A DNA stretch of 36,568 nucleotides from Phycisphaerae bacterium (lineage in GTDB: Bacteria; Planctomycetota; Phycisphaerae; Sedimentisphaerales; Anaerobacaceae), in contig JAGOLX010000058.1 of NCBI GenBank assembly GCA_017993835.1, positions 1 to 36,568 of the forward strand, written 5' to 3'. Under the pieces are notes generated by a model. It was not told the DNA's origin and made no database searches. It saw nothing but the letters and a program-made list of their open reading frames with translations. Positions 26,519 to 34,066 of the stretch are shown here, piece after piece; the stretch's first letter is position 1; every line of letters begins with the position of its first letter. Both the position numbers and the translations under genes were made by a program.

Positions 26519-27898
26519 TCAGGGGTTCTCGTTCAGCATCTTCTTCGTGCGGAGAATGTGGTGATAGTGCTGAGCAAAACGGTGGGCCTCGTCGCGGACG
26601 TATTGCAGGAGCTTGCGGACGGGCGAGTTGGCGGGCAACTTCAGGGGCTCCGCAGCGCCCTGGAGGTAGATGTCCTCCTCGCGTTTGGCAATTGAGGCCA
26701 TCTTCGTGTGTGGTCTCTGGAGATCCGCCCCCCCCGCCGCGACCGCCTCGTCGATCATGCCCGCCAGCGCCGCCTGGGCAGCGTGCAGGTGGCCCAGGCC
26801 GCCGTCGATGAGGATCAGGTCGGGCCAGAGCTCCTCGCCCCGCAGGGTGTACTTGTAGCGGCGCCGGACCACTTCCGCGATCATTGCATAGTCGTCGATG
26901 CCCTTGACCGTCTTGATGCGGAAACGGCGATAGCCGGTCTTGAAGGGCCGGCCGTCGATGAACTTGACGAGCGAGCCGACCGCCTCGGCGCCGCTGATAT
27001 TGGCGATGTCGATCCCCTCGATGATGCGGACCTGGGCAGGCGTCTGGAGGATGTCACGGAGCTTGATGAGCCCCTCGGCAGGGTCAGCGGCGAAGACTTC
27101 CGGCTGGACGTGCTCGTCCGGCGTGCCACGCTGGTCCAGGCTCTCGATCAGGCGGATGCGGTCGCGGAGCATCGCGGCCTTCTCGTATTCCAGGTGCTTC
27201 GACGCCGCGGTCATCTGCTCGTACATCTCTCGCAGCACCGCGGACCGCTTCGACCGCAGGAAGCGGACGAGGTCCTTGACCGTCCTGCGGTATTCGGCTT
27301 TCTCGATCCGGGCCGCACAGGGAGCCGTACATTGATGGATGCTGTGCAACAGGCACGGGCGGAAGAAGCGCCGCTTCGGGTCATCCGCATCGATCTCCAG
27401 GCCGCACGTGCGGAACCGGAAGATCTTCTGCATCTCGACGAGGACGCCGCGAAGGTCGCGGACGTTCGTGAACGGGCCGAACAGGATGGTCCCCTTCTCC
27501 TGCGGCTTGCGGGTGATGTAGACGCCAGGGAAGTCCTCACGGACCGCGATCTCCAGATAGGGGAACGTCTTGTCGTCCGTCAGGTCCATGTTGTACGGCG
27601 GACGGATGTCCTTGATCAGCCGGGCCTCCTTGAGCATGGCGTCGACCTCGCTCTCGGTCTCGATGCAATCGACCGTGTGAACCCGGCTGACCATCTCCAC
27701 GATGTGGGGTCCGCGGGAGGCTTCCAGGTTGCTGGAGGGCTGGAAGTAGCTGCCGACGCGGGATCGCAGGGACTTGGCCTTGCCGATGTAGAGCACGACG
27801 TCGTCGGGGCTCTTCATGAAGTACACCCCCGGCCCGGTCGGGAACTCCTTGATCCGCTCGCGGATTCTCTCGATTCTCTTGCTGTCGTCCTGGCTCAC
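26519..27898 (-). CDS. uvrC: UvrABC excision nuclease subunit C, lacking the C-terminal HhH domain
   Basis: The protein has about 459 residues. An N-terminal GIY-YIG nuclease domain (GPGVYFMKS at 22-30, YIGKAKSLRSRV at 37-48) makes the 3' incision. A Cys cluster (C-x-x-x-x-C region FRPCLLHSIHQCTAPC) and the UVR helix (about 225-260, MTAASKHLEYEKAAMLRDRI) bind UvrB. The RNase H-like endonuclease (about 295-455) has Asp in IEGIDIANISG and LILIDGG and His in RDEAHRFAQHYHH. The protein stops at KKMLNENP, where typical ~600-residue UvrC proteins continue into tandem helix-hairpin-helix motifs, which are absent here. I chose GTG 27898 (GGGAG eight bases upstream); the ATG at 27979 would add a Gly/Pro-rich, unconserved leader. 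Confidence 0.92.
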   Translation of the reverse strand: MSQDDSKRIERIRERIKEFPTGPGVYFMKSPDDVVLYIGKAKSLRSRVGSYFQPSSNLEASRGPHIVEMVSRVHTVDCIETESEVDAMLKEARLIKDIRPPYNMDLTDDKTFPYLEIAVREDFPGVYITRKPQEKGTILFGPFTNVRDLRGVLVEMQKIFRFRTCGLEIDADDPKRRFFRPCLLHSIHQCTAPCAARIEKAEYRRTVKDLVRFLRSKRSAVLREMYEQMTAASKHLEYEKAAMLRDRIRLIESLDQRGTPDEHVQPEVFAADPAEGLIKLRDILQTPAQVRIIEGIDIANISGAEAVGSLVKFIDGRPFKTGYRRFRIKTVKGIDDYAMIAEVVRRRYKYTLRGEELWPDLILIDGGLGHLHAAQAALAGMIDEAVAAGGADLQRPHTKMASIAKREEDIYLQGAAEPLKLPANSPVRKLLQYVRDEAHRFAQHYHHILRTKKMLNENP

Positions 27899-28030
27899 CG
27901 CCCGACTCCCGAGACTGCCGCCGCCCTGCCGCGGAGGACCGATGGGATCGCCCGCCGGCAGGCCGGACTGCCTGATCATGCCTATGATATCGACAGGAAT
28001 CCGCGCGGTTCATTTCGCAAAATAAAATAC

Positions 28031-28581: not shown

Positions 28582-31182
28582 TCAGTTCCTCTCCCACAGG
28601 ATCAGGCCCATCTCGAACGGGCTGCTCTGGTCCGGATGATTGGGGAGAATCCGCACGGCCACCCCATGCTGGCCCGTCGCACGGCATTCCATGCGTCCGG
28701 TGAACCAGTGGTCGCCGTTGTCGCCGGCCTTCTGCTCGTGGGTCATGGCGATCGCCATTCCGTCGCGGATGTTGCCCCAGGAATCGGTCGGGCCGTGATA
28801 GAGTTCGACGCTGACATCTCGCGGCTGGGCCCGCCCGAGGTTGACCAGTGCTCGCACCGCCAGTTCCGTCCCCACCTTCAACTGCGGCTGGCGCGGATTC
28901 AACTGCTCGCCGCCGTTGCCGTTGGCGGCGTTCAGGACCACCTCGCGGACCGCGAACTGCGACCAGGCCTGTCGCATCTCGGACTTCCATCGCGCGAAGG
29001 CCTTCGCCTTGCTCATCGCGCCGGAGGTCAGATGGTGATATCGGGTCGCCGCCGGACAGTAGAACCGCCGGGTGTACTCCGCCAACATGCGATGCGTGTT
29101 GAACCGTGGCGCCACCCACTTGACACAGGCCTTCATCCTCGCGATCCACCCGCGAGGCAGGTTGTCCGCCGACCGGGCATAGAACAGCGGCACGATCTCG
29201 TTCTCCAGCACGTTGTATAGGGCCTGGGATTCGACGCTGTCCTGGTACTCGAGATTCTCGTAGTTCTCGCCGGCCCCGATCACCCAGCCGCCGTCGGGGA
29301 TATAGCCTTCGCACCACCAGCCGTCCAGCGTGCTGAGGTTCAGGACGCCGTTGGCGGCCGCCTTCATGCCGCTGGTGCCGCTGGCCTCCATGGGTCGCCT
29401 CGGGTTGTTCAGCCAGACGTCGACGCCTCGCACGAGGAATCGGGCGACATCGATATCGTAGTCCTCCAGGAAGACAATCCTCCGCCGGACCGCGTCCTGG
29501 GAGGTGAAATGGGCGATATGGCGGATGATCTCCTTGCCCGCGGTGTCCTTCGGATGCGCCTTGCCGGCGAAGACGAACTGCACGGGCCGATCTGTGTCGT
29601 TGACCATCCGGATGAGACGCTCCACGTCCCGCAGGAGCAGGTCGCCTCGTTTGTAGGCGACGAACCGTCGGGCGAAACCGATGGTCAGCGCCTCGGGGTC
29701 GAGCACTTCCTCCGCCTGTCGCAGCTCGCCCTGGCAGGTGCCCCGACGCTGCATCTGGGCCATGAGCCTCTTGCGGGCAAAGACGATCAACTGGTCCTTG
29801 CACCGCTGGTGCCCGCTCCAGAGCTCCTCGTCCGGGATGTGGTCCACCTGTTCCCAGTTCGACTTGTCGAAGACCGTGGACGACCACGTCGGTCCGATGT
29901 ACCGCTCGTAGAGAGAGGAGACTTCGTCCGACAGCCAGCTCTTGAGATGAATCCCGTTGGTGATCGAGACGATCGGGACCTCTCGCGATGGCAGTCCGGG
30001 CCACAACGAGCCCCAGACCTCGCGGGAGATCTGGCCGTGCAGCTTGCTGACACCATTGAGGTAGCTGCTGAGCTTGATCGCGAGCACGGGCATCTTGAAC
30101 GGCTCGTTCTCGTCGTCGGGCAGGATCCTGCCCAGGGACAGGAACTGCCGGCGGTCCACCCCGAGCTGCGGGTAGTAGCCGCCGAAGTACTTGTCCATCA
30201 GATCCACTTCGAACTCATCGAGTCCCGCTTTGACGATCGTGTGTGTGGTGAAGACGTTGCCCGCCTTCGTGGCCTCGACGGCCTCCTCGAACGTCATGTT
30301 CGTCTCGCCTCGAATCTGGCGAATGCGTTCGAGGGCCATGAATGCCGCATGTCCTTCGTTCATATGACAAACCGACGGCGCGATGCCCATCGCCGCCAAC
30401 GCCCTCAAGCCCCCGATGCCCAGCAGGATCTCCTGGCGAATCCGCAGCTCGCGGTCGCCGCCGTAGAGGCTGCTGGTCACCATGCGGTCGCCGGGAGAAT
30501 TCGACGGGATGTTCGTGTCGAGCAGATACAGTTTGAGCCGGCCGACGTCGATGCACCAGATCTGCGCCTCGACCGAGCGTCCCGGATACTCCACCCAGAT
30601 CGTCATGGGCCGGCCGCCCGAGTCGCGCACGAGCGAAGCCGGCATGTTGAACAGGTCGTTCTCGTGGTACGCTTCCTGCTGCCAGCCGTCGAGGTTCAGA
30701 TACTGGCGGAAGTAGCCCGTCTGATACATCAGGCCGATGCCCACGAGAGGGATGCCCAGGTCCGATGCGCTCTTGAGATGGTCGCCCGCCAGGATGCCCA
30801 GTCCGCCTGCGTAGATCGGCAGGCACTCGTGCAGTCCGAACTCCGCGCTGAAGTAGGCGATCACCGCGTCGGGATTGTCGCTGCAGACCTTCTGGTACCA
30901 GGTCGATGCCTGCATGTACTCCGCCAGCGTCTCCGATGCGCGGCGCAGCTCGTTGAGAAAACTCTCGCTCTGCGACAGCGCCTCCAATCGGGATTGCGAG
31001 ACCGTACCGAGGAGCTTCACGGGATTGTGACCACACGAGGCCCAGAGGGCCGGATCGATCCTCTTGAACAACTCCACGAACTGCGGATTCCAGGACCAGA
31101 CCAGGTTCCTCGCGAGAACATCCAGTTCCATCAGGGATTCGGGCAGCGCCGGCAGGACCGTGAAACTTCGAACACTCGGCAT
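28582..31182 (-). CDS. glgP: Alpha-glucan (glycogen) phosphorylase, DUF3417-containing type
   Basis: The 866-residue GT35 enzyme releases glucose-1-phosphate from alpha-1,4-glucan. The N-terminal ~120 residues (LPESLMELDVLARNLVWSWNPQFVELFKRIDPALW) are the DUF3417 module found in the shorter bacterial/archaeal phosphorylases. The core has YFSAEFGLHECLPIYAGGLGILAGDHLKSASDLGIPLVGIGLMYQTGYFRQ, HMNEGHAAF, and TTHTIVKAGLDEF. The pyridoxal-phosphate site is EASGTSGMKAAANGVLNLSTLDGWW, with the Lys in GMK. ATG 31182 is preceded by GAGGAG within about 6 bases. A probable 6S RNA with a terminator lies 182 bp upstream on the same strand, so glgP needs its own promoter in 31183-31363; I see no clear one. 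Confidence 0.95.
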   Translation of the reverse strand: MPSVRSFTVLPALPESLMELDVLARNLVWSWNPQFVELFKRIDPALWASCGHNPVKLLGTVSQSRLEALSQSESFLNELRRASETLAEYMQASTWYQKVCSDNPDAVIAYFSAEFGLHECLPIYAGGLGILAGDHLKSASDLGIPLVGIGLMYQTGYFRQYLNLDGWQQEAYHENDLFNMPASLVRDSGGRPMTIWVEYPGRSVEAQIWCIDVGRLKLYLLDTNIPSNSPGDRMVTSSLYGGDRELRIRQEILLGIGGLRALAAMGIAPSVCHMNEGHAAFMALERIRQIRGETNMTFEEAVEATKAGNVFTTHTIVKAGLDEFEVDLMDKYFGGYYPQLGVDRRQFLSLGRILPDDENEPFKMPVLAIKLSSYLNGVSKLHGQISREVWGSLWPGLPSREVPIVSITNGIHLKSWLSDEVSSLYERYIGPTWSSTVFDKSNWEQVDHIPDEELWSGHQRCKDQLIVFARKRLMAQMQRRGTCQGELRQAEEVLDPEALTIGFARRFVAYKRGDLLLRDVERLIRMVNDTDRPVQFVFAGKAHPKDTAGKEIIRHIAHFTSQDAVRRRIVFLEDYDIDVARFLVRGVDVWLNNPRRPMEASGTSGMKAAANGVLNLSTLDGWWCEGYIPDGGWVIGAGENYENLEYQDSVESQALYNVLENEIVPLFYARSADNLPRGWIARMKACVKWVAPRFNTHRMLAEYTRRFYCPAATRYHHLTSGAMSKAKAFARWKSEMRQAWSQFAVREVVLNAANGNGGEQLNPRQPQLKVGTELAVRALVNLGRAQPRDVSVELYHGPTDSWGNIRDGMAIAMTHEQKAGDNGDHWFTGRMECRATGQHGVAVRILPNHPDQSSPFEMGLILWERN

Positions 31183-31363
31183 TTCATCTCCTCACTATCC
31201 AATCGTCCGTATGAAGCAGGCCCCCCTCAACCGACGCGGGCAAGCCCTGCGTTGTCATCGGCAGGATAAGGGGATTGCTTAACCTCAAAAGGGCTCAGGA
31301 TTTGCAGGGGTCGAATGTCCCTGTGCCCGATAAAGCGGGCGAGGACGATGTCACGAGGAAATG

Positions 31364-31398
31364 AAAAAAGGCCTGCGCAAAACACAGGCCCTTTTCTT
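31364..31398 (-). terminator. Bidirectional-looking intrinsic terminator of the 6S RNA
   Basis: GGCCTG (31370-31375) and CAGGCC (31385-31390) flank a 9-nt loop. On the minus strand the stem is followed by TTTTTT, and on the plus strand by CTTTTCTT. It lies about 15 nt beyond the predicted 3' end of the mature RNA and upstream of glgP. Confidence 0.85.
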
Positions 31399-31403
31399 AT
31401 ATG

Positions 31404-31599
31404 CCAGCTCACCTCCACCTGTGCCGTAAAAGGGGCGATTGAAGGGAACCCATTACTTCAAGTGGGCAGATCGTTGCTTGCGTCCAAACTTCCTGCTGGC
31501 AGGCATGTTCGGCCCGGCAAGGCCTGATCCTCCCTCAGTACGGGTATCGGTTCCTTCAAATACACGCCCTGAATACGAACACTGCAGGGGTCAGCCTGC
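31404..31599 (-). ncRNA. ssrS: 6S RNA (RNA polymerase-binding regulatory RNA)
   Basis: The transcript of about 196 nt runs from a promoter at 31634-31606 to just before a terminator. Pairings, given as plus coordinates: the closing stem joins 31585-31598 with 31404-31421. Next, GTG-TT-CGT (31582-31575) pairs with ACG-G-CAC (31427-31421), the same 'TT opposite G' internal loop that E. coli 6S has in GATG-TT-CGC/GCG-G-CATC. Then GGGCG (31569-31565) pairs with CGCCC (31437-31432), and TTTGAAGGAACC (31560-31549) with GGGTTCCCTTCAA (31451-31439). Primary-sequence echoes of E. coli 6S include GTTCG near the 5' end, CCGATA after the second stem, and CACTTGAA...GGGTTC on the 3' side. 6S RNA mimics an open promoter and sequesters sigma-70 holoenzyme, typically in stationary phase. 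The exact ends are estimates. Confidence 0.82.
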
Positions 31600-31605
31600 A
31601 ATCTA

Positions 31606-31634
31606 CATATAACAAATCCGCGGCGCTCGGTCAA
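31606..31634 (-). promoter_or_regulatory. Sigma-70 promoter of the 6S RNA
   Basis: On the minus strand TTGACC (31634-31629) and TATATG (31611-31606) are separated by exactly 17 bp. A start 7 nt downstream (about 31599) coincides with the first base of the closing stem of the RNA. The remaining 270 bp to the end of pheT (31635-31905) holds no gene or clear terminator. Confidence 0.75.
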
Positions 31635-31905: not shown

Positions 31906-33918
31906 CTACACGGTCCGCAGCTCGGCGCCGACCGCCTTGCGCAGGCTCTCCACGATGGCCGCCTGGTGGCGGTCCACCACATCGTGCGTGAGAGTGCCGT
32001 CGTCGTCGCGGAACCGAAGCGAGAGCGTGACGCTCTTGACGCCGGGGGCGATCCCCTTGCCGCGGTAGATGTCCACGAAGCGGGTCTCCTCCAGCTCGGC
32101 CGGCGCTACGCTCTCGACCGCCTGCGCGATCTGCGCCCAGGCCGTCGGTTCCGGAACGAGGATGGACAGGTCGCGGTCAATGGCCGGGAAGCGAGGGATG
32201 GGTCGGATCTTGATCGGCCCACTCCTGAGGGCCGCCAGCTCCTCGAAGTCCAGCTCAGCCCCGCAGGGGGCGAGGTCCTTGAAGTCGAATTTCTGACGAA
32301 TGGCATCCGCAAATACGCCGGCCCAGCCGATCTCGCGTCCATTCACCACGATGCGGCCCCCCACCTCGGCCCAGACCAGTTCCACAGGGTCGAATCGGAC
32401 GTCCGCCGTGCGGTTGATGCTCTGGACCAGCCCCTCCACCGCCCCGCGAAGCTGACGCAGCGAGCCGTCGGTCACCAGGGCGACCTTCGTCCGTTCCATC
32501 GGCAGCGAGCCCGAGGTCCCCGACGGCACGAACGTATCCGCCATCTCGTAGATGCAGCACGGCAGGTTCCGCGCGTTCACGTTCGTCTTGAGCACCTCCA
32601 GCAGCGAGGTCAGGAGGGTCTGGCGCAGCAGGTTGCCCGTCTTGCGAGTGACATCGCGGACGGCCAGGTGTCCCGCGCCGGGCGCGACGAACAGGTCCGC
32701 GACGCCCCGGTCCACGAATGTCACGTTGACCGTCTCGTAGTAGCCGCACCCATTCAGGAAGGTTCCGACCGCCTCGGAGAGCTTCTGCCGGGCGTCGGCG
32801 GGCCGGGCCTCGATCTGAATCCGCGTCCGCGTGCCGACCTTGTCGTAGCCGTACACCCGGGCCACCTCCTCGATCAGGTCCACCTCGCGAGAAATGTCGC
32901 TCCGCCAGGTGGGCGAGGTGCAGAGGATCGAGCCGTCCTCCAAACGAGGCTCGAACTGCAGCGCCGCGAGGATCTTCATCGCAGCCTCCTGGGGCACCTC
33001 GATCCCGAGCAGCTTGTTGAGCCGGGACAACCTCATGCGGACCTGCCTGGGCTTGGGCCGGCGAGGATAGGCGTCCACGACGCCGTTGGCCACCCTGCCG
33101 CCCGCCCACTCGACGATGAGCTGCGCGGTCCGACGGGAGGCCCAGTCAATTCGCTCGACGTCCACGATCCGCTCGAACCGGAACGACGCCTCCGATGGCA
33201 ACGAGAGCCGCCGGGAGGTCGTGCGGATTGTGACCGGGTCGAACCAGGCGTCCTCCAGGAGGATCGTCGCGGTCGCGTCTTTCACTTCCGTCTGCAATCC
33301 GCCCATGATGCCCGCCAGCGCCACTGGCTGCCGGGCGTCGGCGATCACGAGCATCTCCGGCGTCAGCTCGCACTTCGTCCCGTCGATGCTGACGAGCTGC
33401 TCGCCCGCGACCGCTTTTCGTACGATGATCTTGGCGCCCTCGATGGTCGCACAGTCGAACGCGTGGGGCGGCTGGCCCGTCTCCATCATCGCGTAGTTCG
33501 TCGCGTCGACGACGTTGTTGACGCTCCGCATGCCGACCGCTTCGAGCCGCTTGACGACCCAGTCGGGCGACGGGCCGATCTTGACCCCTTCGATCACCCT
33601 GGCGGTGTATCGGGCGCAGGCCGCGGGCTCGCGGATCTCCACCGAGACGAAATCCGACGCGGGGCGATCCATCTCCTCCAGGCGCACGTCGGGCAGCCGG
33701 AGCGCTTTGCCTGTCGCGGCGCCCAGCTCCCGGGCGATCCCGATGTGGCTCAGGCAGTCGCCGCGATTGCTCGTGACTTCGACATCGATCACCGCGTCGT
33801 CGGCTGTCTGCTCGATCCCTTCGCAGGGCAGGCCCAGATTCATCAGGATCTCGGCGATCCGCTCGGCCGAGAGGTCGATTTCCACGTAGTCGCGAAGCCA
33901 GTTGACGGATACTTTCAT
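31906..33918 (-). CDS. pheT: Phenylalanine-tRNA ligase beta subunit, short form lacking the tRNA-binding insert
   Basis: The 670-residue subunit of the alpha2-beta2 PheRS is normally about 790 residues. The N-terminus MKVSVNWLRDYVEIDLSAERIAEILMNLGLPCEGIE runs directly into DDAVIDVEVTSNRGDCLSHIGIARELGAATG. The EMAP/Trbp111-type tRNA-binding domain usually inserted at this point (about 110 residues) is missing. The B3/B4 editing domain (RSVNNVVDATNYAMMETGQPPHAFD), B5 domain (RLNKLLGIEVPQEAAMKILAAL) and catalytic-like core (VDLIEEVARVYGYDKV) are present. A C-terminal ferredoxin-like anticodon-binding domain (IPRFPAIDRDLSILV...VKSVTLSLRFRDDDGTLTHDVVD) closes the protein. ATG 33918 has AAGGG eight bases upstream. 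No pheS is adjacent upstream: the next gene is divergent. Confidence 0.95.
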   Translation of the reverse strand: MKVSVNWLRDYVEIDLSAERIAEILMNLGLPCEGIEQTADDAVIDVEVTSNRGDCLSHIGIARELGAATGKALRLPDVRLEEMDRPASDFVSVEIREPAACARYTARVIEGVKIGPSPDWVVKRLEAVGMRSVNNVVDATNYAMMETGQPPHAFDCATIEGAKIIVRKAVAGEQLVSIDGTKCELTPEMLVIADARQPVALAGIMGGLQTEVKDATATILLEDAWFDPVTIRTTSRRLSLPSEASFRFERIVDVERIDWASRRTAQLIVEWAGGRVANGVVDAYPRRPKPRQVRMRLSRLNKLLGIEVPQEAAMKILAALQFEPRLEDGSILCTSPTWRSDISREVDLIEEVARVYGYDKVGTRTRIQIEARPADARQKLSEAVGTFLNGCGYYETVNVTFVDRGVADLFVAPGAGHLAVRDVTRKTGNLLRQTLLTSLLEVLKTNVNARNLPCCIYEMADTFVPSGTSGSLPMERTKVALVTDGSLRQLRGAVEGLVQSINRTADVRFDPVELVWAEVGGRIVVNGREIGWAGVFADAIRQKFDFKDLAPCGAELDFEELAALRSGPIKIRPIPRFPAIDRDLSILVPEPTAWAQIAQAVESVAPAELEETRFVDIYRGKGIAPGVKSVTLSLRFRDDDGTLTHDVVDRHQAAIVESLRKAVGAELRTV

Positions 33919-34066
33919 GTCGCACACCCTTACAGAAAGCGGTAGAAACCCGGTAGATTACCCTCGGCCAGCCAGCCTGTCAACAGCGTGCTGAAGCCCG
34001 CGCATGCGTCGCGTGCACGACCGCCGTTACGGCCTCCTGTGGGGCGACGAGGCATAGGCCGGACGC

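Follow-up and report, generated by a model that had tools for sequence, protein, structure and literature searches.

The stretch of DNA between pheT and a glgP-type gene in the window (the whole 36,568-nucleotide stretch that was analysed) raises the question of whether it encodes a genuine 6S RNA or merely something that resembles one. An Rfam 15 scan of the whole window returned RF00013 as the sole match at the gathering level (31593-31408 on the minus strand; 55.7 bits against a gathering score of 46.4, E = 1.3e-8), so that the covariance-model search suggested in the initial annotation gave a score above the threshold. The model is covered from end to end (positions 1-187 of 187), and a single 6S match was found genome-wide (E = 5.4e-10; 6.37 Mb, 115 contigs). 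A second covariance model, R1, which was built from relatives together with the 6S sequence of the window, covers 31397-31601 of the locus. The locus is a real 6S RNA gene; the kind of RNA is ordinary and the member is new. Almost certainly, the gene is a 6S (SsrS) orthologue that has a promoter and a terminator of its own. The features discussed below are collected in Table 1.

Table 1. Positions of the 6S RNA gene, its parts and its neighbours in the window, and of 6S loci near rarA in family f33.
Feature	Position	Strand	Basis
pheT, phenylalanine--tRNA ligase beta subunit, upstream neighbour	31906..33927	-	TIGR00472, 513.7 bits
-35 box TTGACC	31629..31634	-	sequence; similar TTGAnn at equal distance in relatives
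-10 box TATATG, 17 bases past the -35 box	31606..31611	-	sequence; layout conserved in relatives
Predicted 6S primary transcript, start to end of T-run	31364..31599	-	inferred from promoter and terminator
6S RNA (RF00013, full-length)	31408..31593	-	55.7 bits versus gathering 46.4
Closing stem 5' arm with UU/G internal loop	31570..31590	-	A2 helices 1 and 2, 92-98% of cells paired, 8 pairs changed on both sides
Central bubble 5' side with AACCGAU; predicted template of product RNA 5'-AUCGGUUCCUUCAAAUACAC	31546..31565	-	AACC[G/T]AT or AGCCGAT in 29/30
Apical hairpin CCTGCCAGCAGG	31492..31503	-	A2 helix 9, 99.2% of cells paired, 2 pairs changed on both sides
Central bubble 3' side, CCCACTTGAAGTAATGGG	31449..31466	-	conserved in A2
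Intrinsic terminator GGCCTG-TGTTTTGCG-CAGGCC-TTTTTT	31364..31390	-	folding; found at all 29 loci
glgP-type alpha-glucan phosphorylase, downstream neighbour	28582..31182	-	TIGR02094, 865.4 bits
6S RNA loci near rarA, family f33	L131:4247-4432; L155 (minus strand); L159:866-1052; L164:945-1131; L105:4080-4272; L130:4166-4373		

The fold was assessed with an alignment, A2, of 30 sequences in the same orientation. RNAalifold yields a rod of 43 pairs, 25 of which show changes on both sides, and the nested complementary segments noted in the initial annotation are thereby confirmed by covariation across related genomes. With the structure fixed, 93.8% of the alignment cells are paired, compared with 83.4% in shuffles and 37-46% with slid partners, the latter being a control that favours the tested structure because this was derived from A2 itself; the full-length Rfam match is independent of A2. 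Changes on both sides occur in 148 cells, compared with 45.4 in shuffles. The rod-like arrangement of closing stem, central bubble and apical arm is thus supported by compensatory changes, with far lower values in the controls. The TT/G internal loop of the E. coli type is present in the window (TGTTCG opposite ACGGCA) and recurs in the same form or as a close variant in all 30 aligned sequences. The fold of the single sequence is not unusually stable (z = -1.26) and its central bubble is partly closed. As folding energy does not single out the 6S RNA, the evidence is that of covariance: family membership is shown by the covariance model and the rod-shaped fold by the compensatory changes, and both uphold the 6S assignment.

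The 5' side of the central bubble carries the motif AACCGAU (31552-31546), which is kept in 22 of the 30 sequences; a further five have AACCTAT and two AGCCGAT, giving 29 of 30 if one substitution is allowed. The E. coli 6S product RNA starts 5'-AUCGGCUC, and by analogy the product RNA in the window would be 5'-AUCGGUUCCUUCAAAUACAC, with its start predicted opposite the U at 31546. In a crude test in which the template was blocked before refolding, the hairpin on the 3' side of the bubble scored 0.00 to 0.01 for the window 6S RNA and was clear in only two of the 17 sequences computed; the test thus lends no support to the release step, nor does it speak against it. Conservation of the template motif also bears on a different reading, in which a 6S-derived RNA would bind core RNA polymerase that lacks the primary sigma factor, like Ms1 of Actinobacteria. 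PMC9130861 describes Ms1 as structurally related to 6S RNA, and the fold alone is therefore no proof of holoenzyme binding. Such an RNA is nevertheless very unlikely here, since Rfam 15 gives RF00013 only, and at full length, and the product-RNA template motif is conserved.

A small protein gene was also considered. A 108-aa open reading frame with an ATG start runs from 31784 to 31458 on the same strand as the 6S RNA, and tblastn finds matches to it in relatives, including a near full-length match in one close relative. Most of these matches, however, cover only the part that is conserved as RNA (from about residue 47-62), with the N-terminus missing, and the frame is broken by indels in A2. 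The chance that this frame is the gene is negligible. The open reading frames of the 6S region were rejected as genes; the initial annotation had likewise seen no credible protein frame here.

The promoter described in the initial annotation, TTGACC-N17-TATATG, lies at 31634-31606, and transcription of the 6S RNA would start near 31599. The layout TTGAnn-N17-TATANN recurs upstream of the 6S match at most of 29 loci of the taxonomic order (that of the window included); the -10 box and the beginning of the match are usually 12-13 bases apart, and the best 12-base promoter score averages 9.2 at the related loci compared with 7.1 in shuffles. A scan with a strict sigma-70 pattern did not list the 6S promoter, as its rule requires a final T and this -10 box ends in G. 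The intrinsic terminator is also present as described: it folds at -19.0 kcal/mol (shuffle mean -5.6, with none of 40 shuffles as low), and terminators are found at 29 of 29 loci with a mean of -16.9 kcal/mol, compared with -4.5 in shuffles. The terminator pattern scan left it unlisted, its limit being a loop of 8 bases where the loop here has 9. In blastn comparisons with related loci, conservation in most hits reaches no further than about 31357 on one side and 31640 on the other, and the borders of DNA conservation thus correspond approximately to the terminator and the -35 box. The conserved promoter and terminator suggest an independent transcription unit of about 200 nt.

The placement of the RNA between pheT and glgP given in the initial annotation is borne out by the protein-family matches on either side (TIGR00472 upstream and TIGR02094 downstream). 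The PheT protein has relatives of up to 86% identity in MAGs that bear the names Planctomycetota, Phycisphaerae, Phycisphaerales and Sedimentisphaerales, which places the window in an uncultured planctomycete near Phycisphaerae/Sedimentisphaerales. A downstream 6S match was found at 39 pheT loci, one of them cut by the end of its contig; the 6S RNA starts 85-355 bases past pheT in 35 of these and 1.7-4 kb past it in the other four. In 27 of the 34 loci with room for it (a share of about four in five, with one shorter glgP-bearing locus counted inside the 27 or beside it), glgP comes next in the same orientation, at a distance of about 140-330 bases, and it adjoins the 6S RNA in all four loci with a distant pheT. 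Because the loci were gathered through pheT, the linkage to pheT is over-represented; the linkage to glgP is free of this bias. Outside the taxonomic order, pheT lies close upstream of the 6S RNA in several other families, and many families have 6S neighbours other than pheT. The gene order pheT - 6S - glgP is conserved, and it offers a positional route to divergent 6S genes.

The same linkage could be read to mean that the RNA is a 6S look-alike leader or cis-element of glgP, with the promoter reading through a regulated terminator. The frequency with which glgP comes next on the same strand, including at the loci with a remote pheT, would fit such a leader, but the RNA fits the 6S consensus in full and ends in a strong terminator, and in other families it occurs without glgP nearby. 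A leader in place of a 6S RNA is accordingly highly improbable; a leader role could be additional to the 6S function. For the 6S RNA itself, it is conceivable but unlikely that the linkage is functional, with leaky termination feeding glgP and thereby putting glycogen breakdown and the sequestration of polymerase under a common switch in the taxonomic order. The initial annotation had held that the position next to glgP would suit a stationary-phase regulator; the linkage is real and conserved, while its functional meaning goes beyond the evidence. So does the claim that the terminator proves glgP to be a separate transcript, as terminators can be read through.

By analogy with known 6S RNAs, the transcript would mimic an open promoter, bind the housekeeping RNA polymerase holoenzyme and block it when nutrients are low. 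On recovery, the polymerase would use the central bubble as a template, starting at the U at 31546, and make a short product RNA (predicted as 5'-AUCGGUUCCUUC...), which would open the 6S RNA and set the polymerase free. Polymerase binding, product RNAs and abundance in stationary phase are what we infer from this analogy.

The window RNA resembles E. coli SsrS (RF00013) in its closing stem with the UU/G loop, the CCGAU on the 5' side of the bubble and the apical arm, as well as in its length of about 200 nt and its own promoter and terminator, and differs in having pheT and glgP as neighbours. The E. coli 6S product RNA is AUCGGCUCAGG, whereas AUCGGUUCC is predicted for the window. The 6S RNA of Aquifex aeolicus is listed at a pheT locus (PMC4227106), as in the window; product RNAs of Aquificaceae have been proposed to begin with G (PMC4227106), whereas a start with A is predicted here. 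For lactic acid bacteria, GG at positions 4/5 or 5/6 of the product RNA is reported to be a feature whose conservation extends beyond this group (PMC8414754). The window RNA is likewise a canonical 6S RNA with GG predicted at 4/5 (AUCGG), although the 6S gene of lactic acid bacteria lies between rarA and uspA rather than between pheT and glgP.

RF00013 matches were found in 49 of 61 genomes from the same and related species and, with strict filters, in 111 of 244 from the phylum as a whole, a survey in which ten candidates were scored per genome, so that a missing match is weak evidence of absence. With model R1, 41 of 61 genomes from the class gave a match. A 2014 survey of 6S dissemination, as relayed in PMC5673643, reported no 6S RNA in Pirellula and Rhodopirellula. 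A 6S RNA from Phycisphaerae is nowhere described in the literature searched, in which planctomycete 6S RNA is mentioned only as absent (Pirellula, Rhodopirellula and Thermogutta), and the remark that 6S RNA is poorly described in such bacteria is a fair one. Against this literature of absence, the survey places 6S RNA in many planctomycete families, and the locus adds a well-supported 6S RNA with a promoter, a terminator and a predicted product RNA for a deep, mostly uncultured planctomycete lineage.

Within the class Phycisphaerae, four near-complete genomes of family f8 (G062, G092, G141 and G205) gave no 6S match with RF00013 or R1, reflecting either true loss or divergence past both models. 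The 6S RNAs of family f83 of the same class (L135, L136, L137, L138, L139 and L140) are 251-279 nt long. In most of them the apical arm bears an additional hairpin on its 3' side, of which CAGGAGAACCCTCCTG is one example, and L135 scores above RF00013 gathering (47.4 bits). Two different 6S-like matches occur in genome G331 (C129:49838-50014 and C84:12692-12869, the latter being L154; 66.1 and 40.1 bits), possibly two 6S genes or contamination. In six of 16 genomes of family f33, a RarA-like AAA ATPase has its start codon 4-10 bases past the 6S match, and the closing stem of the 6S RNA carries, on its 3' strand, a GGAGG at Shine-Dalgarno distance from that codon; the 3' end of this 6S RNA may also serve as the ribosome-binding site of rarA. 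Elsewhere in the window, a 486-aa protein encoded on the minus strand (26519-27979) matches UvrC, best over the N-terminal nuclease part (residues 41-284).
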